Shown here one piece after another: positions 13,498 to 63,458 of a stretch of 64,000 nt of DNA. Position 1 is the first letter of the stretch. Each line of letters begins with the position of its first letter. This DNA is from Nonomuraea cypriaca (GTDB lineage Bacteria; Actinomycetota; Actinomycetes; Streptosporangiales; Streptosporangiaceae): the NCBI RefSeq assembly GCF_015645445.1, contig NZ_JADOGI010000004.1, positions 60,693 through 124,692 on the forward strand, read 5' to 3'. The translations under genes were made by a program, and so were the position numbers. Under the pieces are notes generated by a model that worked only from the letters and a program-made list of their open reading frames with translations, made no database searches and had not been told where the DNA came from.

Positions 13498-13558
13498 GCT
13501 ATCCCTCGGTGGGCTATCCCTCGGTGGGCTATCCCTCGGTTGGGCTATCCCTTGGTGG
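13498..13558. repeat. 15-bp repeat x4 carrying the permease stop codon
   Basis: Units at 13498-13512, 13513-13527, 13528-13543 (one extra base) and 13544-13558. On the minus strand the unit is CCACCGAGGGATAGC. The copy at 13544-13558 is the permease's own last codons (T-K-G-stop), so three further copies of its end lie downstream. Confidence 0.95.
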
Positions 13559-14351
13559 CTCCGGCCGTGAGGCCGCTGATGATGTGCCGTTGCATGAAGA
13601 CGAAGAAGACCAGCAGCGGGGCGATGGCCAGCAGCAGCGTCGGGAAGACCACCGTGTAGTCGGTGGAGTACTGGCTGACCGCCGCGTAGACGCCGGTGGT
13701 CACCGTGTAGAGTCCGCTGCCCGGGCCCAGGATGATCTGCGGGTTCACGAAGTCGTTCCACACCGAGAAGGTGTTCAGGATGACCATCGTGGCGACCGCG
13801 GGCCGCATCAGCGGGAAGACGATCCGCCAGAACGTACGCAGCCGCCCCGCCCCGTCCACCGCCGCCGCCTGGTCGAGGACGGCCGGGATGGTGGCGATGT
13901 ACGCGGCGTACAGGAAGATCGAGAACGGGAGGGTGAGTGTGGTCTCGAACAGGACGAACCCGCGGATGGTGCCCATCAGGCCGAGGGTCTTGAGCACGTA
14001 CACGACGGGGATGACCAGCACCTGGCCCGGGATGAACGTGCCGGCCAGGAAGAACAGCATGAGGACACGGAACCTGCGCTTGGGGCTGCGCGCGATCACG
14101 TACGCGGCCGGGGCGGCCAGCACCACCGACAGCACGTTGACCGCCACCACGAACAGCAGCGTGATCGCGTATCCCTTGAACACGTTGAACTGCGCGTTCG
14201 TCAGCGCCCTGGCCAGCGGCTTCAGCGTCAGCCCGCCCAGCCCGAACGGGTTGGCCAGGATGTCCTGCTGACCCTTGAACGCGTTGACGGCCAGCACGTA
14301 GAGCGGGACGAGCATGAAGGCGACGGTCGCCCAGAGGAACGTCTTTCTCAC
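13545..14351 (-). CDS. Sugar ABC transporter permease (MalG type)
   Basis: A 268-residue inner-membrane component of a carbohydrate importer of the CUT1 type. Six spans are visible, with the EAA loop near residues 180-200 (AAAVDGAGRLRTFWRIVFPL) that docks to the ATPase. The GTG at 14351 overlaps the preceding permease stop (GTGA). No ATPase gene is in the cluster; as in other actinomycetes it may share a general ATPase such as MsiK encoded elsewhere. The C-terminal codons are the source of the 15-bp repeats. Confidence 0.92.
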   Translation of the reverse strand: MRKTFLWATVAFMLVPLYVLAVNAFKGQQDILANPFGLGGLTLKPLARALTNAQFNVFKGYAITLLFVVAVNVLSVVLAAPAAYVIARSPKRRFRVLMLFFLAGTFIPGQVLVIPVVYVLKTLGLMGTIRGFVLFETTLTLPFSIFLYAAYIATIPAVLDQAAAVDGAGRLRTFWRIVFPLMRPAVATMVILNTFSVWNDFVNPQIILGPGSGLYTVTTGVYAAVSQYSTDYTVVFPTLLLAIAPLLVFFVFMQRHIISGLTAGATKG

Positions 14352-15289
14352 TGGTGCACCGCCAGCTCCCCGCGCCTGCGCAGTTTCGTCACCACGAACG
14401 CCAGCGCCGCCGTCACCAGCATGAGGATCACCGACTGGGCCGAGCCGAAGCCGAGGCGGGCGTCGTGGAAGGAGTTCCACAGGATGAGGTAGGCGACGGT
14501 CTGCGTCTGCCCGGCCGGTCCGCCCGCCGTCAGCGACACCACCAGGTCGTACGTCTTGAGCAACGTCACCAGCGACAACACGATGTTCACCGTCACTGAC
14601 GGGCCCAGCGCGGGCAGCGTCACGTTCCTGAACACCTGCCACCGGGTCGCCCCGTCGATCCGCGCCGCCTCGATCAGCGAGTGCGGCACCGCCTGCAGCC
14701 CGGCCAGGTAGAGCACCACGTTGACGCCGAACCCGGCCCACACGAGCACCGCGATCATGGTGACCGTGGCCCAGGTCGGATCGGACAGGAACGGCAGCAC
14801 CTCCCCGCCCCACGTGGTCACCAGGTTGTTGACCGCGCCGGTGGTGCCGAGGATGGCCGACCACAGGAAACCGACAACAAGGGCGCTGAGCACGTGCGGA
14901 TAGAACAGCACGATCCGGAAGAACGCGTTGGCCTTCGAGGCGCCGTTCACCAGGAGGGCGAAGCCGAGGCCGAGCAGGTTCAGCCCGGCGGTGCCGGCCG
15001 CCGCCACCAGCAGCGTGACGAGGGAGGCGCGGCGCAGCTCGGGGTCGTCAAGGAGGTCGGCGTAGTTGGCGGCGCCGACGAAGGCCGGGTCGGCGCTGAA
15101 GCCGTCCCAGTCGGTCAGGCTCAGGTAGAGCGCCAGGCCGACCGGGACGATCAGCATCACGACGTAGAGGATGGTGGCGGGGGCGACCATGATCGTGGTG
15201 GCCAGGCCGTCGAGTCTCCTCCTGGCCGGGCCGTCGAATCTCCCCCCGGCCTGGGTGGTGACGAGGGGTGCTTCCCGGGTGAGGGTCAT
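14348..15289 (-). CDS. Sugar ABC transporter permease (MalF type)
   Basis: A 313-residue partner permease with an extended N-terminus and six spans beginning TTIMVAPATILYVVMLIVPV. The EAA loop reads EAARIDGATRWQVFRNVTLP. The ATG at 15289 overlaps the binding-protein stop (ATGA), giving the standard order binding protein, MalF-like, MalG-like. Its role is import of an oligosaccharide released by the nearby glycosidases; the sugar cannot be read from the sequence. Confidence 0.92.
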   Translation of the reverse strand: MTLTREAPLVTTQAGGRFDGPARRRLDGLATTIMVAPATILYVVMLIVPVGLALYLSLTDWDGFSADPAFVGAANYADLLDDPELRRASLVTLLVAAAGTAGLNLLGLGFALLVNGASKANAFFRIVLFYPHVLSALVVGFLWSAILGTTGAVNNLVTTWGGEVLPFLSDPTWATVTMIAVLVWAGFGVNVVLYLAGLQAVPHSLIEAARIDGATRWQVFRNVTLPALGPSVTVNIVLSLVTLLKTYDLVVSLTAGGPAGQTQTVAYLILWNSFHDARLGFGSAQSVILMLVTAALAFVVTKLRRRGELAVHQ

Positions 15290-16566
15290 GATCGTCCGGC
15301 CAGCCAGCGGTCCACGCCCTCGGCCACTTCCTTGGGCGACTTGCCCACGTACAGGCCCTGGACCTCGGTGTTCCACGCGGCGTTGAAGCCCTTGGGCAGG
15401 GTCGCGTCGCCGTACCCCTCGCCCTGCGGGACCCCGGACGGCGCGCCGTCGAGGATCTCCTGCACCTGCTTCTCCAGCGGCGTGAACTCGCGCTCCACGC
15501 CGGTGCGGAAGTTGCCGTCCTGCTTGAGCTGGCTCTCGACCGCCGCCGGGTCGGTGACGAGCCACTGGACCAGCTTGAGCGCCGCGTCCTTGTTGGGGGT
15601 GGACTTGAGGATCATGTACGGCGCCGCGAGCGTCTCACCCTGCGGGCCCGGATACTGCTGGCCCTCCTCGACCGGGGCGGGGAAGACGCCCACCTCGAAG
15701 TCCTTGTCGGCCTTGGCCTCTGAGGCGGTGAACCAGCTCCCCATGACGTACATGGCCGACTTGCCGGTCAGGAAGGCGGTCTCGGCGTCGGCGTTCTTCA
15801 TGCCCAGGGCGTTCTTGTCGATGTACCCCTTGCCGATCCAGGAGTGGTAGCGCTCCAGGTAGGGCAGCAGCGACTCGCCGGCCTTGATCGTGCCCGCCTT
15901 GACGTCCTGCTGCCAGGTGGGATGCGTCTGGGCGCGGGACGGGTTGGACAGCTGGAGGAGCTGCAGGCCGGTGAGGAAGTCGCCGCCCGTCTGCAACGGC
16001 AGGTAGCCGGCCGACTTGAGCTTGCCCATGGCCGTCTCGAGCTCGTCGAACGTCTTCGGCGGCTGCTCGATCCCGGCCTTGCCGAACGCGGACTTGTTGT
16101 AGAAGACCAGCGACTGCGCCTGCACGCCGACGCCGGCCGTGTAGATCTTGCCGCCCAGCTTGGCCTGCTCGGCCAGCGGCGTGTCCCTGGCCCAGGCCTG
16201 GTCGCTCAGGTCGAGCAGCTGCTCGGCCAGCGTCTCGTCGGCCATCAGCGTCTCGACCACGTCGGGCGCGTTGCCGGCGGCGAGCTGCTGGGGCAGCGTG
16301 TCCGCCACGCCCTTGCCGGTCGGGGCCTCGATCTTGACGTCGATGCCGGGGTTGGCCTGCTCGAACGGCTTGACCAGCCCGTCCCAGTAGACCTGGGTGA
16401 GGTTCGGGCTGATGTTGACCAGCATCCTGACCGTGATCTGGCCGCCCTCGCTCTGCTGCGCTGAGGACTCACCGGCGAAGCCGCCCCCGCCGCAGCCGGT
16501 GAGCACGAGCAGGCAACCGAGGGCTGACAGGGCGAGGGATGTGTGGGGGGTGTGGGGGGAACGCAT
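15286..16566 (-). CDS. Sugar ABC transporter binding lipoprotein
   Basis: A 426-residue extracellular solute-binding protein (family 1). The signal peptide ends in the lipobox LVLTGC (Cys near residue 24), so it is membrane anchored. Typical features are ITVRMLVNISPNLTQVYWDG, then FEQANPGIDVKIE, LLDLSDQAWARD, and a C-terminal helix (PKEVAEGVDRWLA). ATG at 16566 with GGAGG upstream. It is first gene of the importer and is divergent from the chimeric GntR regulator, whose protein probably controls this promoter. Confidence 0.92.
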   Translation of the reverse strand: MRSPHTPHTSLALSALGCLLVLTGCGGGGFAGESSAQQSEGGQITVRMLVNISPNLTQVYWDGLVKPFEQANPGIDVKIEAPTGKGVADTLPQQLAAGNAPDVVETLMADETLAEQLLDLSDQAWARDTPLAEQAKLGGKIYTAGVGVQAQSLVFYNKSAFGKAGIEQPPKTFDELETAMGKLKSAGYLPLQTGGDFLTGLQLLQLSNPSRAQTHPTWQQDVKAGTIKAGESLLPYLERYHSWIGKGYIDKNALGMKNADAETAFLTGKSAMYVMGSWFTASEAKADKDFEVGVFPAPVEEGQQYPGPQGETLAAPYMILKSTPNKDAALKLVQWLVTDPAAVESQLKQDGNFRTGVEREFTPLEKQVQEILDGAPSGVPQGEGYGDATLPKGFNAAWNTEVQGLYVGKSPKEVAEGVDRWLAGRS

Positions 16567-16715
16567 CGCACCTCCAAGGGGGCGAGATCTGCGACGCCTT
16601 TTAATGGGTCGTTACTCGATTAGCGATTATTTAATACGTTGGTAACAGGGGTCGGTCAAGGGGTTATGTGGTGCTACAAATCCGTTTCCAGCGGGTGGCT
16701 GAGTCATAAATGCAT

Positions 16716-16730
16716 TAGAGTAGCCGCGTG
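16716..16730 (+). promoter_or_regulatory. -10 box for a leaderless GTG start
   Basis: TAGAGT (16716-16721) ends 6 nt before the GTG at 16728, and there is no Shine-Dalgarno sequence. This is the usual arrangement of a leaderless actinomycete mRNA. An AATGCATT palindrome just upstream (about 16708-16715) abuts the box and could be an autoregulatory site. The rest of the 160-nt divergent gap is AT-rich for this genome and holds no gene. Confidence 0.45.
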
Positions 16731-17957
16731 TCTGGACGAGATGATGACAAGCGGCTGGTGTTGAGTGCGGAGGAGCGCTCCGCGCTGCGGGCGTGGGCGG
16801 AGGCGCCGGGCGGCGCGCTGGCCCTGCGCAGCCGCATCGTGCTGGCCTGCGCCGATGAGCCGTCCCGCAAGGAGATCGCGGCGGGGCTGGCGGTGAGCGC
16901 GGCGACCGTGGCCAAGTGGCGGGCCAGGTTCGTGGAGCGGGGGCTGGACGGGCTGGCGGACGCGCCGCGTCCCGGCCGCCCGCGCAGCGCGGAGCGGCAG
17001 GAGGCCGAGCGGGTGATCGCGGCCGCCGTCGGAGGAGCGGCGGTGCCGTCCACCCGCACGGTGGCCGCGCAGCTCGGACTGTCGCAGTCCACGGTGGCGC
17101 GGATCTGGCAGGAGCAGCAGATCGCGCCGTCCGCCTCCCGGCTGTTGCCCAGGGAGCTGCTGTCGGACCGGGTCTACGCGCTGCTGCGCGGCTGGGTCGT
17201 CTCCGGTGAGCTGGTGGCGGGGCAGCGGCTCGTGGAAGCCGAGATCGCCAGAAGGGTCGGCACCAGTCAGGCCCCGGCCAGGGAGGCGATCAAGCGGTTG
17301 GCGCACGAGGGCCTGGTCATCTCCTATCCGAACCGAGGTAGTTACGTCGCGGAGATCTCGGACGAGCAGGCCCGGGAGGTTCGCGACATCAGGGTGTTGC
17401 TGGAGGAGTATGCCGCACGCGGCGCCGCCGTCCGCATCCAGGCGGAGACGCTGCGGCAGCTCTCGGCCGACGTCCTGGCCATGCGGCAGGCCGCCCGCGA
17501 CGGTGACATCGGGGCGTTCAGGGACGCCGACCTGGCATTCCACCGGCGGGTGTGCGCCGCCTGCGGCAACTCCTTCCTCCTGCGGTTGTGGCGGACCATC
17601 GAGTCCAACCTGTGGAGCCTGCACGTGGTGGGCAACCCGCTGTACGACGGCGACTGGACGGCGATGGCCGGTCACCACGACGACCTGGTGGCCGCGCTGG
17701 CCTCGGGAGACCCGGACGAGGCGGCCCGCCTGTTCGCGGCCCACGCCCGCGGCGAGGCCTCCCGCACCCGCCCGGCCCACACCCGCGGCGAGGACTCCTG
17801 CACCGATCCGGCCCACACCCACGGGGAGGACTCCAGCCCCCGCCCCGGGGCCGCGGTCCCGGAGGCCGTGGCCCCGGAGGAGGGCGCGGAGGAGGGCGCG
17901 GAGGAGGGCGCGGAGGAGGGCGCGGAGGAGGGCGCCGAGGTCAGCCCTGGGGTGTGA
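16728..17957 (+). CDS. Chimeric regulator: IS630-type HTH + GntR/FCD
   Basis: A 409-residue protein with two unrelated DNA-binding parts. Residues 10-140 match the bipartite helix-turn-helix of IS630/Tc1-like transposases ([16 protein letters not shown], then [44 protein letters not shown]). From about residue 145 comes a complete GntR winged helix ([19 protein letters not shown] to [12 protein letters not shown]) and an FCD ligand domain with metal-type residues in DLAFHRRVC and HHDDLVAAL. The tail is low complexity: two PAHTxGEDS motifs and five EEGA repeats (about 384-403). It is divergent from the sugar importer and probably represses it in response to a sugar acid. Its end overlaps the convergent GH95 gene by 17 bp. 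Confidence 0.85.
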
Positions 17958-21294: not shown

Positions 21295-21302
21295 GCGCCG
21301 CA

Positions 21303-22339: not shown

Positions 22340-22343
<4 letters not shown>

Positions 22344-23056
22344 GCCATCACCCACCCTCCGTTGACTTCGATGGTCTGGCCCGTGACGAACGACGCGTCC
22401 TGGCCGGCCAGGAACGACACCACGGCCGCCAGTTCCTCCGGCCGGCCCCGCCGCTGGAGCGCCTGCCGGTCCAGGACCAGCCGCTCGTACGCCTCGGGAT
22501 CCGGATGGATCTCCTCGGCCGCCGTGGGGAACGCGCCGGGCGAGACGCAGTTGACCCGGATCTCCCTCGGCCCGAGCTCGCGCGCCAGCGCCCTGGTGAG
22601 CGCCGCCGCCGCGCCCTTGGTCGCCACGTACGCGGCCAGGTCGGACCAGCCGCCGTGCATGGTGATCGAGGCGATGTTCACGATCGCGCCGCCGATCGCG
22701 CCGTTGCCTGGCTCGCTCATCTGCCTGGCCGCGTGCTGGGCCGCCAGCCAGTAGGCGCGCTGGTTGACGGCGTGCACGTCGTCGTACTCGGCCAGCGGCA
22801 CCTCCAGGAACGGCCTGGCGGGGTAGACGGCCGCGTTGTTCACGAGGACGCCGACCGGACCCAGCCGCGCGGCCGTCTCCGCGAACGCGGCCTCGATGGC
22901 CGCCGGATCCCGCAGGTCGGTCTTCAGGTTGAGCGCGCCTTCGAGCGCGCCGGCGTCGCGGTCGAGTGCCGCCACCTGGTGGCCGTCGGCCGTCAGGCGG
23001 CGCACGATCGCCCGGCCGAGCGCCCCGGCGGCCCCTGTGACGAGCGCCGTGGTCAC
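22340..23056 (-). CDS. SDR dehydrogenase (L-fucose/sugar dehydrogenase type)
   Basis: A 238-residue classical short-chain dehydrogenase. The NAD(P)-binding motif TGAAGALG is near residue 8, NNAAVYPA follows near residue 78, catalytic Ser lies in NIASITMHGG and the Tyr/Lys pair in AAYVATKGAAAALTRAL. GTG at 23056 is preferred because GGAGG sits 5 nt upstream; an ATG at 23068 is also in frame. It probably oxidises the free sugar to its lactone, which the amidohydrolase at 20458 would open. L-fucose is a reasonable guess from the fucosidase neighbour. Confidence 0.85.
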
Positions 23057-23068
23057 GGTTGCCTCCAT

Positions 23069-23129
23069 TCCTTGTGCGGGTCAGTCCTCGCATGCCAGTC
23101 CTTGTGCGGGGTCAGTCCTCGCATGTCAG
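23069..23129. repeat. 30/31-bp direct repeat spanning a stop codon
   Basis: Copies at 23069-23098 and 23099-23129 differ by one inserted base and one substitution. The second copy contains the last codons and TGA (23112-23114) of the CoA-transferase gene on the minus strand. The first repeats them downstream, directly before the SDR ribosome-binding site. Confidence 0.95.
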
Positions 23130-24302
23130 CACGCCCTTCGCCACCAACTCGGCCGTGCGTCCCGCCGGATAGCCCAGCTCGTCCATCAGCTCCCTCGTGT
23201 GCTCGCCCACCAGCGGCGCGCCCCTGCGTACCGAGGGTGGGGCGGCGCTGAGCCCGTAAGGGAAGCCGGGGGTGGTGACCGTGCCCTCGGTGGGGTGGTC
23301 GTAGGTGACGAACGAGCCGTTGTGCTTGACCTGCGGGTCGGCGACCAGGTCGGCGTACCCGTACACCGGGCCCGCCCACAGGTCGTGGCGGGCGCAGATC
23401 TCCAGCCACTCGGCGGTGGTGCGGCCGGGCAGCCGGGCGGCGACCAGGGCGGTGATCTCGTCGCGCCTGGTGTGGCCGTCGTCGTCGCCGTCCATGGCGG
23501 CCAGCTCCGGCAGGTCGAGCGCGACGGCCAGCGTGTCCAGCCTGGGCATGCCGAGCGCGAGGTAGCCGTCCTTGGTGGCGAAGACGCCGTACGGCGCCCT
23601 GATGTAGGTGTGGCCGTGCGGCTCGCGCCCGCGCCGCTGCGGCACCCCGCCGACCGTGAACACCGACAGCTCCTGCATCTGCACGGCGATGGCCGCGTCC
23701 AGCATGTTGACGCTCACCCGCTGGCCCTCGCCGGTGCGCTCCCGGTGCAGCAGCGCGGCCAGCGCGCCCTCGAACGCGCTGTAGGCGGTGATGGCGTCGA
23801 CGGCGTACGTGCCCGCCGGCGCCGGTGGGTCGCCGTCGCGGCCGGTGCTCAGCATGGCGCCGCTCATGGCCTGCAGCAGCAGGTCCTGGCCCGGTCTCGA
23901 CGTGTACGGGCCGGACTCGCCGTAGCCGGACATGGAGACGTACACGATGCCCGGGTTGACCGCGCTGATCGTGTCGTAGTCCATGCCGAGCCGCTCGGCG
24001 ACGCCCGGCCGGTAATTCTGCAGGAACACGTCGGCCGTCGCGGCCAGCCGGTGGACGACCTCGCGGCCCTCGTCCGACTTGAGGTTGACGGCCAGGCTGC
24101 GCTTGTTGCGGTTGAGCGACAGGAACGAGGCGTTGACCCGGTTGCCCGTCGCGCCGCCCGCCGGGGCGTGCCGCTGCCACTCGCCGGTCACCGGCTCCAC
24201 CTTGACCACGTCCGCGCCCAGGTCGCCGAGCCGCATGGCGGCCAGCGGGCCGGCCATGGCGATGGACAGGTCGACCACGCGGTAGCCGTCGAGAACGCCC
24301 AT
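23112..24302 (-). CDS. Family III CoA-transferase (CaiB/BaiF)
   Basis: A 396-residue CoA-transferase of the CaiB/BaiF (formyl-CoA transferase) family. N-terminal VVDLSIAMAGPLAAMRLGDLG and ADVVKVEPV, then NKRSLAVNLKSDEGR and FLQNYRPGVAERLG are hallmarks. The catalytic Asp is expected in YAVDAITAYSAF. The ATG at 24302 overlaps the upstream hydratase-family stop (ATGA), so the two act as a pair on an acyl-CoA. Carnitine-like (CaiB/CaiD) chemistry or activation of a hydroxy acid are both possible; the substrate is unknown, and its presence in a sugar island is odd. Confidence 0.9.
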   Translation of the reverse strand: MGVLDGYRVVDLSIAMAGPLAAMRLGDLGADVVKVEPVTGEWQRHAPAGGATGNRVNASFLSLNRNKRSLAVNLKSDEGREVVHRLAATADVFLQNYRPGVAERLGMDYDTISAVNPGIVYVSMSGYGESGPYTSRPGQDLLLQAMSGAMLSTGRDGDPPAPAGTYAVDAITAYSAFEGALAALLHRERTGEGQRVSVNMLDAAIAVQMQELSVFTVGGVPQRRGREPHGHTYIRAPYGVFATKDGYLALGMPRLDTLAVALDLPELAAMDGDDDGHTRRDEITALVAARLPGRTTAEWLEICARHDLWAGPVYGYADLVADPQVKHNGSFVTYDHPTEGTVTTPGFPYGLSAAPPSVRRGAPLVGEHTRELMDELGYPAGRTAELVAKGVLTCED

Positions 24303-27973: not shown

Positions 27974-28018
27974 CCCGGCTCGGCGGTGCCGGTGACTGGG
28001 CGAGCGGGGCGGGTGCTC

Positions 28019-28089
28019 GTGACGCGGTTCGGCGGGGTGGGGTGCTTGTGAGGCTCGGTGGTGTGGTGGGGGTTCCGTGACGCGGTTCG
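28019..28089 (+). repeat. Duplicated kinase start region
   Basis: GTGACGCGGTTCG occurs exactly at 28019-28031 and again at the kinase start codon (28077-28089). A weaker third copy lies at the RuBisCO-like stop (around 27971). The 103-nt spacer between the two genes is built largely of these degenerate G-rich repeats and holds no gene. Confidence 0.75.
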
Positions 28090-29342
28090 CTTTCGTGGCT
28101 GACGACTTCACCGGGGCGACGGACGCGTTGTGGCAGTTCAGGCGGTTCGGGCTGAGCGGGTCACTGGTTACGGACGTGGCGTACCTGCATGATCGGGACG
28201 ACGTCATCGGCGTCGCCACCACCGCGCGTGCGTCGAGTGACCCGGCTGACGTGGTGCTGCCGGTGTTCGAGGCGCTGGCGGCGCTGGAGCCGCTGGTCAT
28301 CCAGTACAAGATCTGCTCGACGTTCGACTCGTCGCCGGAGTCGGGCAGCATCGGGGCGGTCATCGCGGACCTCCACCGTGCGGGTCTCGCTCACGGCCCG
28401 GTGCCGGTGCTCGCCGCACAGCCGGAGCTCGGACGCTACACCTGGTTCGCGAACCACTTCGTACGGGCAGGCGACGAGGTGCGCCGGCTCGACCGCCACC
28501 CACCGACGCGAGACCACCCCGTCACCCCGGCCACCGAGGCCGACCTCCGGGTACGGCTGACCGAGCAGGGCGCGGGCCGGACCGGATGGCTGCCGGCGGT
28601 CCCGTCGCGGGAGGCGTACCTGGCGAGGGGTGAGGACGCCGCCTTCGTGGCGGACGCGCTGACGGACGAGCACGTCCGGGCACTCGGCCACCTCCTCCTC
28701 GCCGACGCCGCGACCCGGCCTCCGCTCGTCTGCGTGGGCTCAGGCGGCCTCAGCTACGCGCTGGCCTCCGCGGACGCCGCTTCCCTGCCGCCGGATCCGG
28801 TGGGAGGAAGTCTTGGCCGGCCGCTGGAGGCGGTGGGAGGGAGTCTTGGGCGGCCGCTGGAGGCGGTCGCGCCGCTGCTGGTCGTGTCGGGGAGCCGGTC
28901 GCCGGTCACCGGCCGTCAGATCGACACGGCGGAGCGGGCGGGGTGGCGGGTTCTGGACGTTGGCGGGGGAGCCTCGGGGAGCGTCTTCGCCGAGGTCGAG
29001 GAGAGCCTGCGTTCGGGTTGTCACACGATCGTGCAGTCGACGCGGGGACCCGCCCTCGACCGGGACGGCATCGGAGAGTCGCTCGGCCGGGTCGCCTCGG
29101 CGGCGGTGCGGGCCGGGCTCGTCCGGAGGCTGGTGATCGCGGGTGGCGACACCTCGGGACAGGTCGTGGCCGCGCTCGGGGCGCGTTCGCTGGACGTCAT
29201 CGCCTTGCCGGCGGCCGGCGGCCCCGTGTGCGTGCTGTCGTCCGACGACCCGGCCTGCGACGGGCTCGAGGTGGCGTTGAAGGGCGGCCAGGTCGGCGCC
29301 CCCGACTACTTCCTACGCGCCGCCTCCGCGACCACGGCCTGA
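28077..29342 (+). CDS. DUF1537 four-carbon acid sugar kinase (OiaK-like)
   Basis: A 421-residue ATP-dependent sugar-acid kinase. The N-terminal FVADDFTGATDALWQF and QYKICSTFDSSPESGSIG are family hallmarks of the substrate domain. The C-terminal nucleotide domain has VSGSRSPVTGRQI, then RRLVIAGGDTSGQVVAALG and a closing GGPVC strand. It would phosphorylate a keto-sugar acid; next to a RuBisCO-like gene the best match is 3-oxo-isoapionate kinase (OiaK). GTG start at 28077. Between the domains, residues 242-263 are an exact-frame 11-residue duplication (GGSLGRPLEAV twice) from a 33-bp DNA repeat at 28800-28865. Its stop codon is itself in a repeat. Confidence 0.9.
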   Translation: MTRFAFVADDFTGATDALWQFRRFGLSGSLVTDVAYLHDRDDVIGVATTARASSDPADVVLPVFEALAALEPLVIQYKICSTFDSSPESGSIGAVIADLHRAGLAHGPVPVLAAQPELGRYTWFANHFVRAGDEVRRLDRHPPTRDHPVTPATEADLRVRLTEQGAGRTGWLPAVPSREAYLARGEDAAFVADALTDEHVRALGHLLLADAATRPPLVCVGSGGLSYALASADAASLPPDPVGGSLGRPLEAVGGSLGRPLEAVAPLLVVSGSRSPVTGRQIDTAERAGWRVLDVGGGASGSVFAEVEESLRSGCHTIVQSTRGPALDRDGIGESLGRVASAAVRAGLVRRLVIAGGDTSGQVVAALGARSLDVIALPAAGGPVCVLSSDDPACDGLEVALKGGQVGAPDYFLRAASATTA

Positions 29343-29393
29343 ATCCCGCGACCCGGCCTGAATCCCGCGACCCCGGCCTGGAACCCCGTGACC
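29335..29393. repeat. 19/20-bp repeat x3 carrying the kinase stop codon
   Basis: The unit CGGCCTGAATCCCGCGACC starts at 29335, repeats at 29354 and appears diverged a third time. The TGA in the first unit is the kinase stop (29340-29342); the second unit carries an identical TGA. Confidence 0.9.
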
Positions 29394-29849
29394 ACCCCGC
29401 GACCAAGACCACGCCGGGTGCGGCCGACCTGCCACGCACGCGCCGGAGCAGCGTCCCCCGCTGGGTGGGCGGCGACGGTGGATCACGGGTAAGGCCACTT
29501 TCCGCTCATGTGGCGGGCATCTTATCAATGATGGGGATCACTTTGCCCGGCCGTCAATTTTTGTCCGGATTCTGTGACACAGCCCTTCGGTCGATCACCT
29601 CAAACCCACGCGGAACGGGCATATTTCGGCAGGTCAGACGCTTGGTTGGAAGGCTTCCGTCTATCTTGGCGTCCCAATTGTGAGTGACCTTACCGTTATC
29701 CTGAACCGTTTCTGACTGTTACATTTTTACATATATTCTGCGCCTTGATCGCCATCTCTACGCCAATGTGATTTCAACATGTGGGATGGAGTTGCGGGGG
29801 CGCCTCTCCAGCCCGAGGCCATGCCCCTGGTCAGTTCGAACGGAGAGTA
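29394..29849 (+). promoter_or_regulatory. Intergenic region with peptide-ABC promoter
   Basis: About 500 nt separate the kinase and the ABC operon. The first part is repeat-derived GC-rich sequence. From about 29510 it is markedly AT-rich. TATATT at 29732-29737 is a good -10 box with a weak -35 (TTCTGA, 29710-29715), giving a leader near 110 nt. I see no gene, riboswitch or perfect operator dyad here. Confidence 0.5.
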
Positions 29850-35566: not shown

Positions 35567-37603
35567 ATGCGTGGCTTACGGGCGTTCGCCGTCGTTCTGA
35601 CTCTTGTTCTCACGACTTTCGTGGCGGCGGAGCCGTCCATCCCGGCGGTCGCCGGACCTACCGACCCCGAGCCGGCCTCGCTGGTCACCCTGACCGTGCC
35701 GGACCGGGCCGCGATGGACCGGCTGGTGGCCTCCGGCGCCGACCTCACCGAGCGGGTACGCCCGCAGCCGGACGGCAGCATCCAGGTCGACGCCGTCGTC
35801 ACCCCGAGCCAGCTCGCCTCGATGGGATCGCTCGGCGCGACCCTGGCGACCGGCACGCCGGCCCCGGCCCAAAGCAGGAAGAAGCCGCCGGCCACGCGGG
35901 ACCAGATCGTGGTCGAGCGCGCGGTCTGGTTCGAGTCGCGCGACGGATACTTCCTGTCGGTCGAGGCGTCCAGCAACGCCGGGGAGGCCGCCACGCTCAG
36001 CGTGACGTGGAAGGGCAAGCGCGGCGCGACCGGGCAGGCGGAGATGGTCGCGTACGTCGACGCGGGCGCGTACCTGGGCCACCAGCTCAGCACGCCGGTG
36101 CCGGTCGACAGCGAGCCGCAGTGGGTCACCATCACCTCGGCCGGCGGTGGCAAGGCCGAGGCGCGGGTCAAGGAATGGCCGGACGGCGAGCGGCCGGACC
36201 GCACCGGACGCGGCTACCAGAAGGACTTCATCACCCAGTACATGCCTCCGGCGCAGCTCAACGAGCGGATCAAGGCGCTGCACCGGCGCTACCCCAAGCT
36301 CACCGACATCATCGAGTTGCCGAACCTCACCAACGGCTACCGCCGCAACGCCCAGGCCCTGATCGGCACCCCGCCGGCCGCCGCCGTCGTGGTCACCTCC
36401 AACGCCTACGGCTCCGAGGGCGGCAACGACCTGGCCGTCGAGCTGGTCGACCCGGGCGCGTCCGGCAGCGCGCTGCGGGTGACGGTGGACGGCAAGCTCG
36501 TCACCGTCAGCCTGGCCACCGACGGCTCCGGCGCCGTCACCAGCACCGCCGCCCAGGTCGCCGCCGCCGTCAACGCGACGCAGGGCATCGCCGTCAAGGC
36601 CACGACCTACCGGACGGACGCCGGCGCCGGCGTCATGGCGCCCGCGCCGCTCATCCAGCTGAGCGACTTCCTCAACGCGCCCGCCGACGTCCCCCGCGCG
36701 CCCGCCCAGGTGCTGGCCCTGCGCATCGGCAAGCACCGCGACGGCTCGCGCACCGGCGTGCTGGCCTACGCCCAGGAACACGCCAGGGAGTGGGTGACGC
36801 CGCTGGTCACCATCGAGGCGGCCGAGCGGCTGCTGCGCAACCAGGACCGCGACAGCGCCACAGGCAAGCTGCTGGAGCGCACCGACATCTTCATCGTCCC
36901 GACGGTCAACCCCGACGGCGCGAACTACAGCTTCTACGACTTCAACTCCCAGCGTAAGAACATGACCAACCACTGCCCGGCGCAGCAGTCCGACCCGGCG
37001 CTGCGCAACCAGTGGGGCGTGGACGTCAACCGCAACTACGCCGTGGGCTCGTACTCCGACGGCTACGTCGGCGGTTCCGGCAACTGCCAGAGCGGCACGT
37101 ACTCAGGACCCGCCGAGCACTCCGAGCCCGAGAGCCGCAACGTCATCTGGCTGGCGCAGACGTTCCGCAACATCAAGTTCGCCATGAACGTGCACAGCTA
37201 CGGCGGCTACTTCATGTGGCCTCCCGGCGCCTACAAGGCCGAGGGCCGGGAGGCGCTGCCCAGGCCGACGGCCGACCAGGAGGCGTACTTCCTGCGCGCG
37301 GCCCGCACCATCGAGGAGGCCATCGCCGCCGAGCGGGGCACGGTCACCTGGCCGCAGCAGACCGGTCCTGTGACGGACGTGCTCTACTCGGCGGCGGGCA
37401 ACTCCGCCGACGAGCTCTGGTACGACTTCGGCATCTACGGCTGGGACTTCGAGGTCGGCGGCGACCTGTGGAATCCCGAGACCCGCAGGTGGGAAGGCGT
37501 GGGCTTCCAGCCGCCGTTCGCCGAGGGGCACGGGGAGGCGATGGAGTACGCCGCAGGCCTGATCTCGCTGATCAGCGTGGCGGCCGACTACCGCGAACGC
37601 TGA
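35567..37603 (+). CDS. Secreted M14 zinc carboxypeptidase
   Basis: A 678-residue exported metallopeptidase with a Sec signal (MRGLRAFAVVLTLVLTT to VAG). About 200 residues of pro- or accessory sequence precede the M14 domain (YMPPAQLNERIKALHRRYPK). Zinc ligands are H405 and E408 in QEHAREWVTP and H543 in NVHSYGG; the substrate Arg lies in VDVNRNYAV and the catalytic Glu is E629 in WDFEVGG. A beta insert (about 280-360) splits the family's usual first strands from the HxxE motif. ATG with AGGAGGA upstream. It would trim peptides outside the cell, perhaps for the peptide importer just upstream. Confidence 0.92.
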   Translation: MRGLRAFAVVLTLVLTTFVAAEPSIPAVAGPTDPEPASLVTLTVPDRAAMDRLVASGADLTERVRPQPDGSIQVDAVVTPSQLASMGSLGATLATGTPAPAQSRKKPPATRDQIVVERAVWFESRDGYFLSVEASSNAGEAATLSVTWKGKRGATGQAEMVAYVDAGAYLGHQLSTPVPVDSEPQWVTITSAGGGKAEARVKEWPDGERPDRTGRGYQKDFITQYMPPAQLNERIKALHRRYPKLTDIIELPNLTNGYRRNAQALIGTPPAAAVVVTSNAYGSEGGNDLAVELVDPGASGSALRVTVDGKLVTVSLATDGSGAVTSTAAQVAAAVNATQGIAVKATTYRTDAGAGVMAPAPLIQLSDFLNAPADVPRAPAQVLALRIGKHRDGSRTGVLAYAQEHAREWVTPLVTIEAAERLLRNQDRDSATGKLLERTDIFIVPTVNPDGANYSFYDFNSQRKNMTNHCPAQQSDPALRNQWGVDVNRNYAVGSYSDGYVGGSGNCQSGTYSGPAEHSEPESRNVIWLAQTFRNIKFAMNVHSYGGYFMWPPGAYKAEGREALPRPTADQEAYFLRAARTIEEAIAAERGTVTWPQQTGPVTDVLYSAAGNSADELWYDFGIYGWDFEVGGDLWNPETRRWEGVGFQPPFAEGHGEAMEYAAGLISLISVAADYRER

Positions 37604-37622: not shown

Positions 37623-37763
37623 CCCTCAACGGCGGCCGGCCGCTCAGTCCTCAACCACGGCCGGTCGCTCAGTCTCAACGGCGGCCGGCCGGTCAGTCCT
37701 CAACCACGGCCGGTCGCTCAGCCTCAACGGCGGCCGGTCGCTCAGTCTCAACGGCGGCCGGCC
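37623..37763. repeat. 24/25-bp tandem repeat x6 across an NmrA stop codon
   Basis: Six units of the form CTCAACGGCGGCCGGCCGCT (then CAGT), alternating with a CTCAACCACGGCCGGTCGCT variant, fill the gap between the peptidase and the NmrA-like gene. The last unit runs into that gene and contains its TGA (37748-37750, minus strand) and final codons. The alternation suggests that a two-unit block was amplified. Confidence 0.93.
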
Positions 37764-38599
37764 GTGAATTCGCGCAGCGTCACCGGCGGGCGGCCGCCGA
37801 TCCGCTCGATGCTCTCGGTCACCCCGTAGAGCGGGTGGTGGCCGGAGCCGATGAAGCGGAAGATCGCCCACAGGTGCGACAGGTGCTCGACCGCGACCGG
37901 GTCGCCGTAGAGGTCGAGCGCCCGCGCCTCCCACTCCTCGGGAGGCAGGTCGGCGTAGTCCACCCCGAACGCGTCCGCCGCCTCGCCCGCACCGGCCATC
38001 TGACCGGTCAGCAGGCACACCGGGTCGGCGGGACCCGGATCGAGCAGGAGGCCGGACGCCACCCTGGCCACGTCGGAGGAGGCCACCAGCGGGATCAGCG
38101 TGTCCGGCGAGCCGAGCGGGAGCGCCAGCCGGCCGCCCGCCCCCTGGACGGCGACGGCCAGGTTCTCGAAGAAGACCGCGGCGCGCAGGTGCACCGCACC
38201 CACCCCGGCCCAGTCGAACACCTGCTCCGACACCCAGTGCCGGCGCATGCGCGGGGTCCCGGCCTCGGGGGAGGCGTCGAGCTGCGACACCTCGACGACG
38301 CGCTCAACGCCCTCCTCCCTGGCCGCCGCCGCGAACGCGCCCGTGGCGTCGAGCAGCCCGGCCGTCACCGGGTAGGTGAAGTACGCCCGCCGGACGCCGC
38401 GCATGGCAGGCCGTACGGAGGAGATCTCCCGCAGGTCGCCGACCACCACCTCGGCGCCGCGCTTGCGCAGCTCCGCGGCCCGCTCGTCGTCGGAGCGGAC
38501 GAACGCCCGCACCGCCGCGCCGCGCTCCAGCAGCAGGTCCACGACCTGCCGTCCGGTCCCTCCCTGCGGCCCACCGGCCGCGCCCGTGACGAGGATCAT
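37748..38599 (-). CDS. NmrA-like NAD(P)-binding protein
   Basis: A 283-residue atypical SDR. The nucleotide motif is ILVTGAAGGPQGGTGRQV with an insertion in the glycine loop, followed by VVGDLREISSVRPAMRGV and RRAYFTYPV. This is the NmrA/quinone-oxidoreductase-2 group, either redox sensors or reductases. The ATG at 38599 overlaps the preceding gene's stop (ATGA). The pair is divergent from a TetR regulator and probably answers a toxic or aromatic compound. Confidence 0.88.
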   Translation of the reverse strand: MILVTGAAGGPQGGTGRQVVDLLLERGAAVRAFVRSDDERAAELRKRGAEVVVGDLREISSVRPAMRGVRRAYFTYPVTAGLLDATGAFAAAAREEGVERVVEVSQLDASPEAGTPRMRRHWVSEQVFDWAGVGAVHLRAAVFFENLAVAVQGAGGRLALPLGSPDTLIPLVASSDVARVASGLLLDPGPADPVCLLTGQMAGAGEAADAFGVDYADLPPEEWEARALDLYGDPVAVEHLSHLWAIFRFIGSGHHPLYGVTESIERIGGRPPVTLREFTAGRR

Positions 38600-56100: not shown

Positions 56101-57092
<992 letters not shown>

Positions 57093-57106
<14 letters not shown>

Positions 57107-57746: not shown

Positions 57747-57797
57747 AGAGGAACCGCCTTCGCTTACGCTTGCATTGGTTCGTAAACGTACGTAATT

Positions 57798-57848
57798 GTT
57801 GCGGTCATTGCAAAATCTGTTGCGGCCACTGCAACTAGAGTGCAATGC
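57798..57848. promoter_or_regulatory. 21-bp direct repeats, IclR operator candidate
   Basis: GTTGCGGTCATTGCAA at 57798 and GTTGCGGCCACTGCAA at 57819 repeat at exactly 21 bp, each a TTGC-N7-GCAA dyad. A third partial GTGCAATG begins at 57840. They lie in the 123-nt divergent gap and next to a TATGAT -10 box (57855-57860) for the iclR gene. Confidence 0.75.
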
Positions 57849-57869
57849 TTTCGTTATGATCGGATGGGG

Positions 57870-58661
57870 ATGACTGAGAAGCCATCTGTGTCCTCCGCCG
57901 GGCTGCGCCGGGACCTGGAGATCCTTGAAATACTCGCAGGTCACGGCAACGATCAGGACGCCGAGGGGTTCGGCGTCACCTGGATCGCGCAGCGGCTCGG
58001 GAGGGAGAAGAGTCAGGTCTCCAGAGCGTTACGCGCGCTGGAGAACGAGGGCATGGTCGAGCGCGACCCGTTGACCCGCCGCTACCACCTGGGCTGGCGC
58101 GTGTTCGCGCTCGCCGCGCGGACCCAGCAGTCGCGGCTCGTACAGGTGGCCGGCCGGTTCCTGCGCGGCCTGGTCACCACATTGGACGAGGACGCGTACC
58201 TCTGCGTGCTGCGCGGCGACCAGGCCCTGACACTGGTGACGATTCCCTCGTCGCGGGCCTACCACCGCATCTGGGAGGGCGTGTCGATTCCGGTGATCAT
58301 GTCCGCCGCCGGCCGTTCACTGCTCGCCGACTGGGAGCAGGACCAAGTCATGGAGCTCCTGCGGGCCAGGCTGCCGTCCGGTCTGGACAGCGCGATCAGC
58401 AGTGAGGAGAGGTGGCTGTCCGACCTGAACCACGTCCGCTCCCACGGGTACGTGGTGACCGAGGTCGAGCTGGAGGACAGCCCGGTCGCGGTGTCGGCGC
58501 CGATACGCGACCATCGCGGGCTGATCGCGGCGGCCGTCAGCGTGAATTGCACGCGCGTGGCCGAGCCGGCCCGGCTGCACGAGATGGGCCGGCTCGTCGC
58601 CGGGGTGGTTCGCGAGATCTCCTACGCGCTGGGCCATCAGGGCGCGAAGCTGCTCGTGTGA
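57870..58661 (+). CDS. IclR-family regulator
   Basis: A 263-residue regulator: winged HTH in residues 12-75 ([35 protein letters not shown]), then an IclR effector domain ([49 protein letters not shown]). The ATG at 57870 is chosen; ATG 57864 and GTG 57840 are in frame. The good -10 box ends ten bases before it, so the message may be leaderless or nearly so. It probably controls the divergent betaine-type importer. Confidence 0.88.
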
Positions 58662-58773
58662 TCCGCCGGCGTTACCAGGCCGGTGCGCTCGGGTAGTGGA
58701 CGGCGGGCGGAGGGAGAGGGCGCCGCGCCCTCGGCGCCTCCCCGTGGCCCACGACTCGGCGAAGGTGACGGGG

Positions 58774-60195: not shown

Positions 60196-60244
60196 ACAGA
60201 CCTGTAGTCGCCGGGCCAGACATCGCGCCCAGACGTCGCGCTTC

Positions 60245-60348
60245 GGCGTCGTGCTCGGGCGTCGTGCTCGGGCGTCGTGCTCGGGCGTCGTGCTCGGGCG
60301 TCGTGCTCGGGCGTCGTGCTCGGGCGTCGTGCTCAGGCGTCGTGCTCA
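60245..60348. repeat. 13-bp tandem repeat x8 downstream of archease
   Basis: Eight head-to-tail copies of GGCGTCGTGCTCG (two end in A), with diverged copies on both sides to about 60220 and 60380. On the minus strand the unit is GACGCCTGAGCAC or GACGCCCGAGCAC, two or three changes from the archease end GACGTCTGAGTAC, which includes its TGA. No spacers, so not CRISPR. Confidence 0.95.
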
Positions 60349-60367
60349 GGCGTCGGCCATGTCGTAC

Positions 60368-60772
60368 TCAGACGTCGACCACGACGTGGGCCTGCCACAC
60401 CTTGCCGGCCTGTCCGAACCGCAACTCGTGTACGGCGATCGCCTTTGGCATCGCGCCGACCTGCTCGACCGTCTCGACGGGCACCATGCGCAGCCGTACC
60501 TCGGCCCGTTCGCCGACCGAGGCGTCCACCGCCACGCGGTCATGCACCTCGACCTGGTACAACACCTCCTGCAGCACCGCGGCGAGCATGGCCTCGTCGC
60601 TCTCCCCGGTCACCGAGACGGGAACGGTCTCGCCGGGCGGGACGTGCGAGATGTCGGCGAAGCTCTCCACCAGCGCCCGCACCGCCTCGGCCAGGCACTC
60701 CTCCCGGGTGTCCGCCCATGCCTCCAGCGCGATGTCAGCGGTGTGCGCCACCGCCCGATGGCCTCTGCTCAT
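60368..60772 (-). CDS. Archease (RtcB activator)
   Basis: A 134-residue archease-family protein. Hallmarks: GHRAVAHTADIALEAWADTR at the N-terminus, then EECLAEAVRALVESFADIS, LAAVLQEVLYQVEVHDRVAV, and the C-terminal KAIAVHELRFGQ with acidic metal residues. Archease speeds RtcB turnover and broadens its nucleotide use. ATG at 60772, 7 nt after GGAG; a GTG one codon earlier is possible. It reads toward rtcB, which is less usual than a tandem operon. The IS lies directly upstream of its start and could affect its promoter. Confidence 0.9.
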   Translation of the reverse strand: MSRGHRAVAHTADIALEAWADTREECLAEAVRALVESFADISHVPPGETVPVSVTGESDEAMLAAVLQEVLYQVEVHDRVAVDASVGERAEVRLRMVPVETVEQVGAMPKAIAVHELRFGQAGKVWQAHVVVDV

Positions 60773-60775
60773 CAC

Positions 60776-62407
60776 CTCACTCCACCAGCGCCGTGTACGC
60801 GGGGGAAGCCCGGAGCCGTCAAGAAACCGTTCCTAATCAGTGATCAGGAGTGGGTCTTGGACCCGCGTCCCGGCACTGCGCGCATCCCGAACGGTTTTGG
60901 ATGCACTGGTCTCCCGCGTTCCTCGTGTGGTCCCCGTTCGGGTACGTGCATCGTGTGCACGCTCCGTGACGGGTGGGCGGGTTTCCTCACGTCCTTGGTT
61001 ACCTGGCTCGGCCTGGACGGTCCGATGCCCCACACGATCGCTCTGGTCATGTGGGGGCGGTGCCGTCCGTCGCCGGATCGGGTGCCCGAGGGCGCGTCGC
61101 CCGATCGCGATACCGGCGGCATCGTGACGGGACATTTCGCGGCGCGGGGCGACCAGCGGCTTTTGCCAGTGCCGGGCTCCCCACTGAGAGGTGTAGGCGG
61201 GATCGACCGCAACGATTGACTGTCCTGCCTCGGCGGCCATCGAGATCAGCCGGGCTTTGAGCTTGCGGGTGGGCATGCCGGAGATCAACTGGCGGAACCG
61301 CTTCTTGCGGCCGTGTTTCTCGCGGGTCTTCTCGGCGGTGAAGTCGAGGTCTTCAATCGCGATGGCAGCGACGCCGCAGCTCGTGGCCCAGTGCAGGAGG
61401 CGGGTGATGGCGTGCCGGATCTGCGCGTCACGGTGATCGGCCGGCCCGGACAGGTCGTAGGAGAAGCGATGCGGCTCACCGACCGGGTTGGTGGTGGAAC
61501 TGCACACGGGCGGTGAACACGTACCGGCCGTTGCGGGCGTTGGCCAGGTGAGTGAGCGGAGCGGGAAGCTTGATCGAGACTTCACCGTCCGGCGTGACGC
61601 GGATCGTCTCATTGCCGAACCTCTTCCCGGACTCCCCGTCAGCAGCGAGGAACCAGCGCTCGGTCTCCCAGCGCTGGCGCCATTGCTCGGCGGTGAGCTG
61701 GGCAGCTTCGAGATGGTGACGGCGGCGAGCCAGCTTCTTGCCGCCCCGCACGACGCGGACGCGACCGGCTTCGCGGTCGGCCTGCTTAGCAGCCAGGCGA
61801 TCTTCCAGTAGGTGCAGGCGCCGGGTCTTGGCGAACCACTCCTGCCGGGTGCGGTACCCGCCCGGGACACGCTTCGTGCCCTTCTCGCCGACCGGCAGCG
61901 ACAGCCGGTGCTCGATGGTCTTAATGCCCGTTTGCAGTCCTTGGATGTGGGCGAGCTGGGCACGACGCGACAGCGCCCACTGGTCGTGGGTGGCCTTGGT
62001 GATGCTGCCTGCCCAGCGTGAGGAGGACTCCCCGGTCAGGTCTCGCTTGCGCCGCGCCCACGTGTCCGTGGAGTGCTCCAGCCCCTCGGCACACCGCTGT
62101 TTGAGATCCTTCGAGGCGAGCGAGCCAAGATGCGCACCCACCAGCCGCAACACCTTGTCGTCCTCCGGCGTGAGGCCCTTGAGGCGGGTGCGGATGGCGA
62201 CACCGGACGGACTGAGGGCGACGAACGGCGGATCGAACACCAACTTGCCGTAATCCCCCAGGACCCGGCCTGTACCGAGCGCGCCAGACAAGAACCGACA
62301 ACCGCCGCAACACCAGGACGAGGACGACCCATTCAGGCGGCAGACAAATCACCCGGCCAAGGAGAGAAACGCCGATGAGCACTGATAGATCCTCGAGTAG
62401 TTATCAG
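60776..62407 (-). mobile_element. Degenerate IS200/IS605-type (TnpB) element
   Basis: Holds only the broken tnpB-like gene; no tnpA. A CTGATA/TATCAG inverted repeat (62382-62387 with 62402-62407) may be the left-end hairpin, at the point where a carbohydrate-binding gene stub resumes. The right end lies between the tnpB stop (60833) and the archease start. Limits are approximate. Confidence 0.65.
60833..62291 (-). pseudogene. TnpB-like nuclease gene, frameshifted and internally deleted
   Basis: The 5' part (61476-62291, TTG start, 271 residues) has the family N-terminus DYGKLVFDPPFVALSPSG and a basic helical middle. The 3' part (from about 61490 down to 60833) is in the +1 frame: GEPHRFSYDLSG, AIAIEDLDFTAEKTREKHGR with the RuvC Glu, VAVDPAYTSQWGARHWQKP and SRHDAAGIAIGRRALGHP with the last Asp. 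The join lies near 61485. From memory, intact relatives have about 60-100 residues here, including the first RuvC Asp (a VDLN-type motif), and I find none, so this looks like deletion plus frameshift. It should be inactive as a nuclease. Confidence 0.82.
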
Positions 62408-62508
62408 GCCTCTCACGGGTCACGCTCGACCCGAGCAGGATTCGCGCCGTGTGGCTGTTCCTCAACAGCGGCGGCGAGGTTTTCATCGACAACATCCGCG
62501 CCGAGTAG
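62404..62508 (+). pseudogene. 3' stub of a carbohydrate-binding/glycosidase gene
   Basis: A frame too short for automatic calling reads SGLSRVTLDPSRIRAVWLFL, then NSGGEVFIDNIRAE and a TAG at 62506-62508. This is the characteristic final strand pair of a beta-sandwich carbohydrate-binding module found at the end of secreted glycosidases. It begins right at the IS boundary. The 5' part of the gene is not on the far side of the IS, so insertion was accompanied by deletion or rearrangement. A remnant of another polysaccharide enzyme. Confidence 0.7.
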
Positions 62509-62572
62509 CCCCATGCCCCGCACTATGCCCGGGGCGCCGCATCTCCAGCGGCGCTCTGGCAGGGTGAGGGGC

Positions 62573-63112
62573 ATGGCGTTCGGGGTTCGCCAGTTCGAGC
62601 TGGCCTTGATGCACCGGATGCGCGACCTCAACCCGGGGCGGGTGGAGGACGCGCTCCACGACATGGGCGCGTCCCGGGCGGAGCTGCGGGCCGCGCACAC
62701 CCAGTGGACTCAGATGGCCCACTCCACCCGGGCCCCGAAGGGGATGGCCGCCCTGCGGATGGCGCTCGGGCCGCCGCCGTACCGGGGCGCGGCGCCGTTC
62801 GGGAGCCTGACCTGCGATGTGGCCCGATGGGTGTTGCCGTCGTGGCCTGACCTGGAGTTCGAGGTCCTGCTCGGCCCCGGCGGCGAGGTGTGGAACCAGT
62901 GGTTCGTCCGCCCTGGCGGCGATACGGCGCTGACCTTCGCGGACCTGGTCCCATGGGGGTGCGTCGTGGCCGACATCGGCGCGAGCTTCCCTGGAGCCTC
63001 CCAGACCGAGGGCCTCGCCCCGCACCACTGGGCGATCGACTTCCCCCACAACGGCACGCACTACCGCGCCCGCTTCGTATACGGCCTCTACCAACGCCTC
63101 GACCGGCCCTGA
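62573..63112 (+). CDS. Conserved hypothetical protein, 179 residues
   Basis: The ATG at 62573 follows a GGTGAGG site; the open frame before it crosses the pseudogene and IS end and is not coding. The protein (MAFGVRQFELALMHRMRDLN, later GEVWNQWFVRPGGDTALTF and HHWAIDFPHNGTHYRARFVY) has the composition of a soluble cytosolic protein, without signal or membrane spans. I do not recognise a family. The next fragment follows without a gap. Confidence 0.7.
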   Translation: MAFGVRQFELALMHRMRDLNPGRVEDALHDMGASRAELRAAHTQWTQMAHSTRAPKGMAALRMALGPPPYRGAAPFGSLTCDVARWVLPSWPDLEFEVLLGPGGEVWNQWFVRPGGDTALTFADLVPWGCVVADIGASFPGASQTEGLAPHHWAIDFPHNGTHYRARFVYGLYQRLDRP

Positions 63113-63123
63113 CCCCGACGCTC

Positions 63124-63414
63124 ACCTCGGGCCACCTCGACCCGGCCGAGCTGGTCGCGCGCCTGGAGGGCTACGAGCGGGCGGGCGTCGAGGCCCTGCC
63201 CGCGGACCTGCAGCAGGCGCTGTTACGCCTCCCGCGCGAGGTGGCTCCGGACGTGGCAGGCCGCGCCGGGGTCCTGGCCTTCGCGATCGACGCCGCCCGG
63301 TGGGCGGGTGCGCGCGGCACGATCCCGGCGGTCGCCGCGATCGCCGCCCGCACGGGGTCGAGCGGTTTCGTACGAACCGCCCGCCTCCTCCACGAACAGC
63401 TCCAACAGGCCTGA
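63124..63414 (+). pseudogene. Fragment of a helical-repeat (DUF7824-like) protein
   Basis: A frame with good coding bias reads HLDPAELVARLEGYERAGVE and PADLQQALLRLPREVAPDVA, then helical repeats to HEQLQQA and TGA. It looks like an internal segment of the large helical-repeat proteins of the DUF7824/DUF6493 type. There is no plausible start near its beginning (the frame's first GTG is at 62890, inside the previous gene), so I treat it as a truncated remnant. The family link is a recollection. Confidence 0.4.
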
Positions 63415-63458
63415 CCCGGCTCCCCGACGGAGCGGCTCCAAGGAACTGACCCGGCTCC
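63411..63458. repeat. 13-bp repeat carrying the fragment's stop codon
   Basis: CTGACCCGGCTCC occurs exactly at 63411-63423, where its TGA ends the helical-repeat fragment, and again at 63446-63458. Confidence 0.85.

Follow-up and report, generated by a model that had tools for sequence, protein, structure and literature searches.

Tandem repeats that reach into the ends of genes are known from the Borg elements of archaea. According to the accessible part of their description (PMC9879509), these repeats form independently, have units divisible by three within open reading frames (ORFs) and in some cases start in the end of an ORF; a test for stop-codon bias does not appear in that part. Here, we analyse short tandem arrays at gene 3' ends in a 64,000-nucleotide stretch of Nonomuraea cypriaca (contig NZ_JADOGI010000004.1, positions 60,693 to 124,692; hereafter the window, by which the whole stretch is meant), where the repeated unit of several arrays includes the native stop codon of a gene. 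Tandem duplications cluster at gene 3' ends in this genome, stop codon included, probably since gene ends tolerate copying errors of the slippage type that selection purges from other sequence.

As in the accessible Borg account (PMC9879509), the arrays of Nonomuraea are many, recent and independent, with in-gene units divisible by three and other units mostly not. Borg repeats are described there as perfect and A-enriched, whereas the arrays studied here are GC-rich, imperfect and located in a bacterial chromosome: arrays over stops have a median match of 88%, and the GC content of the 80 nt after array-bearing stops is 0.717. An earlier note on this DNA knew of no described system of this kind. 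Borg repeats with the first unit wholly or partly inside the end of a gene had already been described, as the same partial source records; no report of a stop-codon bias of bacterial tandem repeats was found in the open-access literature, judged mostly from titles.

Three bacterial systems are also comparable. Minisatellites, or variable number tandem repeat (VNTR) loci, share head-to-tail units of 10–100 bp and variable copy number, and slippage is their usual explanation in the part of the literature at hand (PMC2734929). VNTRs have mostly been studied as typing markers or regulators, whereas the question here is position on stop codons; the arrays have the head-to-tail units of about 10–100 bp expected of the slippage type. 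The mycobacterial interspersed repetitive units (MIRUs) of Mycobacterium are likewise actinobacterial repeats at gene junctions, some of them tandem, but in the accessible text they form one sequence family scattered in the genome (PMC2734929), unlike the unrelated units of Nonomuraea. Only one of 24 queried stop arrays (period at least 18) had a match elsewhere in a 1.25-Mb sample, of 24 bp, and the view of the earlier note that the units are not one mobile repeat is upheld. MIRUs, too, overlap stop and start codons. The TAACTGA repeats of marine Beggiatoaceae are intergenic direct repeats, 13 sets of which overlap the stop of the upstream ORF; as far as the available text goes, they differ in having one fixed 7-bp unit, lying mostly just 5' of starts, with a proposed role in translation (PMC4679880).

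Genome-wide position of the arrays

The host genome is an 11.5-Mb draft of 587 contigs, and the window has a GC content of 70%. Arrays were detected with Tandem Repeats Finder and counted at a score of at least 60, and genes were called with our own codon-usage caller. When retrained and run on 50 kb of E. coli, its algorithm recovered 43 of the 48 annotated stops and none extra. Because start positions are predicted, counts of arrays covering starts are less certain than those covering stops. Fifteen arrays were found in the window, against 0–2 in each of 20 dinucleotide shuffles, so the window arrays did not arise by chance. The own-genome sample consisted of 60 tiles from long contigs, chosen through the contig positions of ABC-transporter matches and blind to repeat content, which together with the window make up 1,246,033 bp (~11% of the genome).

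This sample contained 123 arrays, 72 inside genes and 51 not. The unit was a multiple of three in 66 of the 72 arrays inside coding sequences (CDS), and the period modulo three was unbiased in the other 51 (15/17/19). A whole stop codon was contained in 25 of these 51, where 6.7 were expected (sd 2.3, maximum 14 in 300 runs) from protein-preserving simulations in which units were placed randomly anywhere not inside a gene, in a genome whose arrays had been collapsed to one copy. Start codons were covered by nine non-CDS arrays, against 7.2 expected. The positional pattern is therefore real and genome-wide, and the proposal of the earlier note that position is the common factor is borne out by the very scan that it had suggested. 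Arrays over stops did not differ in age from other intergenic arrays (match, p = 0.23; copies, p = 0.11), and their units were longer (29 versus 19 bp, p = 0.001).

For comparison, 80 loci were gathered and 76 used: 31 from Nonomuraea, 22 from other actinobacteria (mostly Streptosporangiaceae, judged by name) and 23 from Bacillales, with L123 (the same species as genome G022), L176, L191 and L194 excluded. Stops were covered in excess in the Nonomuraea sets, with observed/expected counts of 6/1.5 in G022, 4/2.4 in G002, 3/1.5 in G030, 3/2.4 in G012, 11/4.8 in N. gerenzanensis and 15/5.8 in the 31 named loci. The sum for these relatives, 42 against 18.4 expected, is a weaker excess than that of the own genome, and it includes G002, the sister of G022, and homologous arrays uncollapsed; G002 was excluded from the pooled counts below. 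Outside the genus, the counts were 4/1.8 in other actinobacterial loci, 3/2.3 in Bacillales, 2/0.6 in Streptomyces BHT-5-2 and 3/1.0 in Streptomyces NBC_01340, each within the simulated range.

Slippage signature and tolerance gradient

Array frequencies were related to the supply of seeds, defined as exact 6-mers repeated 10–74 bp away, in the Nonomuraea set without the window; gaps longer than 400 bp were excluded from all array rates given here per seed or per kb, because missed genes may hide there. Per 1000 seeds, arrays numbered 0.40 out of frame in CDS (15/37683), 3.0 in frame in CDS (191/62808), 5.2 over starts (7/1339), 6.2 over both start and stop (5/809), 8.8 far from genes (6/682), 10.1 on the 5' side (17/1680), 21.5 in the 3' flank (31/1441) and 25.3 over stops (40/1584). 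This order of classes is the one that selection on coding and regulatory sequence would give. Genus-wide, stops were not clearly above plain 3' flank (per-seed ratio 1.17, p = 0.29), and for this comparison the process acting at 3' ends that the earlier note had proposed is not needed. The 3' flanks are also richer in seeds, with 19.6 7-mer pairs per kb in convergent gaps, 13.7 in co-directional gaps and 9.4–10.6 on 5' sides.

Many exact two-copy duplications had a repeat of 4 bp or more at the junction: 25 of the 52 in CDS, 7 of the 11 over stops and 16 of the 39 in intergenic sequence, where chance would give 3%. The enrichment is similar in each class, which points to one slippage-like signature in all three, and the short direct repeat at the junctions of the stop duplications is as expected of slippage-type VNTR loci. 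Non-homologous end joining was considered as a source, there being one Ku match in the genome, and set aside in favour of slippage because junction repeats of at least 4 bp are common; the 15 of 52 exact CDS duplications without a junction repeat could be of the end-joining type.

The copying machinery would thus misalign on a short direct repeat, often of 4–10 bp, and duplicate the 10–70 bp between, with later slips adding further copies. Within genes, almost the only duplications to survive would be those with a unit divisible by three. A duplication across a stop codon should be neutral for any unit length, since the final codons and the stop remain in the first copy and the copies after it go untranslated; in cases of overlap with the start of the next gene, that gene could be read from the last copy. 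Gaps in Nonomuraea are very short (collapsed medians of 34 bp co-directional and 50 bp convergent), so that a large share of the 3' sequence in which arrays would be tolerated is no more than one unit away from a stop, and many arrays look stop-anchored. The overlap of arrays into the gene was compatible with a uniform distribution over the unit (Kolmogorov–Smirnov p = 0.57, 45 arrays).

Independent gains at orthologous stops

Genes at the window arrays were identified through Pfam as an ABC permease, a CoA-transferase of family III, an SBD_N/NBD_C (DUF1537) kinase, an M14 peptidase, an NmrA-like/NAD-binding protein, RtcB and archease (Table 1), and the closest named loci to the M14 gene are those of Nonomuraea species. 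Ortholog ends were compared after dropping archease matches below 45% and M14 matches below 65% identity, as well as repeated identical ends. No array separates the adjoining M14 and NmrA-like genes of G030 and G046, at the place where the window genome has one of ~150 bp. Three of 41 distinct M14 ends, those of N. zeae L118, N. terrae L128 and N. pusilla L131, carry arrays with differing units across the stop. The CoA-transferase stop is covered in 2 of 21 cases, by 31 bp x2 in the window genome and by a 14-bp unit in G027 (L286), and is free of arrays in the other 19; the unit of the window is absent from all 20 orthologs. In L286, the 14-bp duplication lies over an overlapping stop and start and is independent of the window array; by our own reading, the upstream gene may end in the first copy and the downstream gene start in the last, leaving both frames usable. 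The DUF1537 stop is covered in 2 of 12 cases, with different units, and the 21 archease ends include one with an array over the stop, a second whose array begins at +1 and that of the window genome, with its main array from +13. Different arrays have thus been gained at the same stops, and the differences in unit between relatives imply that arrays arise time and again, each independently out of the local sequence. As at VNTR loci, close relatives differ in copy number: the sisters G022 and G002 (96% identity) differ by 4–5 tandem events that include a stop.

In the ~277 kb aligned between G022 and G002, in-frame tandem duplications inside genes were common (15 events with a unit of at least 9, 48 with a unit of at least 6), and 47 of the 48 were multiples of three. 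The interval between the short-chain dehydrogenase/reductase (SDR) and CoA-transferase genes (window 22340-24302) holds ~1 kb in the 20 relatives with both matches (L276-L295), in which a further reading frame overlaps the CoA-transferase stop; the window genome seems to have lost this stretch and to carry the array in its place. Downstream of the DUF1537 kinase stop, a stretch like CAATTTATGTCCGGATTCTGTGACA recurs in several species (L315, L318, L331, L334 and, in part, L333), and is perhaps a promoter or operator of a neighbouring gene. Two 22-kb stretches of Nonomuraea typhae, L143 (Scaffold21) and L144 (Scaffold7), are identical over 22,005 aligned bases and represent either a large recent duplication or an assembly duplicate. 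The N. gerenzanensis record NZ_LT559118.1 (L238-L245) is chromosome-sized, at 11.85 Mb, but is filed as 'plasmid I' among plasmid sequences, with 10 annotated features.

Alternative explanations

The pattern is true and quantifiable: arrays are biased in position in several Nonomuraea species, those inside genes pass a frame filter, junctions carry short repeats, frequencies follow a gradient and gains at the same stops were independent. It is best explained by ordinary slippage plus selection. Several results nevertheless weigh against tolerance as the whole account. In the own genome without the window, stops stood 2.76-fold above 3' flank per seed (15/539 versus 6/594, p = 0.024), and without seed correction there were 43 arrays in 39.9 kb over stops genus-wide, against 33 in 51.3 kb of 3' flank, a larger excess than per seed; the genus-wide ratio was 1.37 (p = 0.10) when 8-mers served as seeds and the window was counted in. 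Of the 27 arrays in convergent gaps, whatever the gap length, 17 contain a stop, where 6.4 were expected. Young non-CDS tandem events (unit of at least 9) include the stop in five of seven cases in the sister comparisons, and in five of six in the large sister pair under a laxer match. At 3' ends, Nonomuraea has about three times as many arrays per seed as other actinobacteria (71/3025 versus 11/1504, p = 4e-5), and no class other than 3' ends differed significantly between Nonomuraea and the three other actinobacterial sets, which are high-GC and total 1.2 Mb; a pure tolerance filter alone would not predict an excess confined to 3' ends. Array edges also peak at −20 to −11 from the stop end, less strongly yet visibly after homologous arrays are collapsed. 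Fixed anchoring at this distance was rejected, given the weaker peak after collapsing and overlaps compatible with uniformity.

Some of these results speak for a process at 3' ends, such as transcription termination, ribosome release or convergent transcription-replication collision, that raises the rate of duplication or array growth in Nonomuraea, a possibility that we regard as unlikely but worth keeping in view. In its favour are the genus-specific excess, the stop excess retained in the own genome and the young events, and the excess rises with array score: at a score of at least 100, arrays were found at 71 of 2618 Nonomuraea 3' ends versus 7 of 997 in other actinobacteria (p = 9e-5, homologous arrays uncollapsed). 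Weak arrays, however, were as frequent in both (score of at least 40: 189/2618 versus 69/997, p = 0.83). With long arrays in excess and weak ones equal, births may be equal and array growth greater in Nonomuraea. The 5' ends lean the same way, not significantly at scores of at least 80 and at least 100 (p = 0.07). Against such a process, the junction-repeat signature is alike in CDS, intergenic and stop arrays, the genus-wide per-seed excess of stops over 3' flank is not clear, array-bearing genes resemble others in codon score (p = 0.20) and length (p = 0.77), and two thirds of the small actinobacterial control come from two Streptomyces megaplasmids. The suggestion of the earlier note is thus dispensable in one comparison and retains some force in others; the indirect results on the birth rate at 3' ends conflict, and the comparisons rest on fixed differences.

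Slippage filtered by selection accounts for the pattern better than direct benefits of the repeats, two of which had been proposed. Copies of the stop might be selected as a safeguard against readthrough, since stops seldom occur by chance in a genome of 70% GC, and the other two frames do reach a stop sooner with an array (medians of 18.5 and 23 versus 57 and 50 codons). The next in-frame stop lies at 40 codons with an array versus 43 without, however, the period of the 46 stop arrays modulo three is 14/18/14, and 54 of 80 later copies retain the stop triplet, a fraction of 0.68 that is about the same as the 0.61 of other triplets; extra stops in these arrays are thus neither preferentially in frame nor clearly better conserved than other triplets, and the back-up reading is highly improbable and already largely refuted. 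Selection for transcription termination through repeated hairpins or skewed RNA could draw on partly palindromic units, such as GGCCGGCC in the array between the M14 and NmrA-like genes, but the 46 array-bearing ends are no more stably folded than other 3' flanks (minimum free energy of the 80 nt after the stop −30.3, versus −31.1 for 270 ends without an array, p = 0.95) and have the same GC skew (p = 0.49), which makes it very unlikely. An assembly artefact would fit the 587-contig draft state of the window genome and the small excess in the single-contig genomes G002 and G012; it is scarcely credible given the excess in single-contig G022 (simulation maximum 5) and in the N. gerenzanensis record filed as complete (simulation maximum 12), with a weak excess in G030.

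Shared sequence motifs were also sought. None of the 6-mers survived correction for all 4096 words in a comparison of 63 array ends (homologs uncollapsed) with 2621 others. With correction for the 135 6-mers tested, four passed narrowly, GAGGTC (9/63 versus 65/2621, p = 4e-5) and the overlapping ATGGCT, GCATGG and CATGGC, which is a weak signal.

Arrays of the window

Six gene ends had been listed in the earlier note as carrying stop-anchored arrays. Sites 1–5 are genuine tandem arrays; at site 6, no tandem array was detected at a score of at least 20, and our caller did not call the helical-repeat fragment as a gene. The native stop lies within the array at site 1 (TAG 13545-13547 of the permease gene 13545-14351, minus strand), at site 2 (TGA 23112-23114, the array extending to the predicted start of the next gene, an SDR) and at site 3 (TGA 29340-29342). 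The other two call for correction. At site 4, only the NmrA-like stop (TGA 37748-37750) is inside the array and the M14 stop (37601-37603) outside, the array starting 21 bp past it, and at site 5 the archease stop is covered only by a weak second array, with the main array 12 bp past the stop. The list was also selective, as it omitted two non-coding arrays without a stop, the 53-bp and 29-bp arrays in Table 1, the latter a counter-example in lying over a start.

Table 1. Tandem arrays and claimed repeats in the window
Feature	Coordinates	Strand	Basis
Intergenic array, 53 bp x3.4; 39 bp from stop, 41 bp from predicted start	6962..7143	.	Tandem Repeats Finder
Site 1: array 15/16 bp x4, ABC permease 3' end	13498..13558	-	Tandem Repeats Finder, Pfam
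Site 2: array 31 bp x2.1 over stop of CoA-transferase family III	23065..23129	-	Tandem Repeats Finder, Pfam
Array 29 bp x3.0 over predicted start of DUF1537 kinase	28004..28089	+	Tandem Repeats Finder
Site 3: array 19/20 bp x3.5 over stop of DUF1537-type kinase (SBD_N/NBD_C)	29326..29395	+	Tandem Repeats Finder, Pfam
Site 4: array 24 bp x5.6 between convergent M14 peptidase (+) and NmrA-like (-) genes	37624..37764	.	Tandem Repeats Finder, Pfam
Site 5, main: array 13 bp x9.4 between convergent RtcB (+) and archease (-) genes	60234..60355	.	Tandem Repeats Finder, Pfam
Site 5, edge: degenerate array 22 bp x2 over archease stop TGA 60368-60370	60339..60381	-	Tandem Repeats Finder
Site 6, as claimed: a 12-bp word occurring twice, 35 bp apart	63411..63458	+	Sequence inspection

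The last codons of the NmrA-like gene (37748-37765) lie inside the site 4 array, and its C-terminal tail, as judged by eye, is unlike those of G030 and G046; it may be a new tail made by the repeat. Three adjoining arrays with units of 36, 15 and 12 bp, all multiples of three, occupy window positions 17725-17940, where the predicted gene 16758-17957 encodes its C terminus.

Implications for Nonomuraea

In compact genomes, stop codons are natural places to observe duplication in its raw form, since duplications across a stop show up at any length, and the comparison of in-gene, start, 5' and 3' classes yields a measured scale of tolerance. The three-fold excess at Nonomuraea 3' ends is a concrete and testable lead, although a genus-specific process is the minority reading: it is conceivable, if rather doubtful, that a process tied to transcription termination or ribosome release in this genus turns short stop-codon duplications into long arrays. 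In that case, gene ends would be the fastest-changing DNA of Nonomuraea and would keep supplying the genus with new C-terminal tails and altered spacing between genes.

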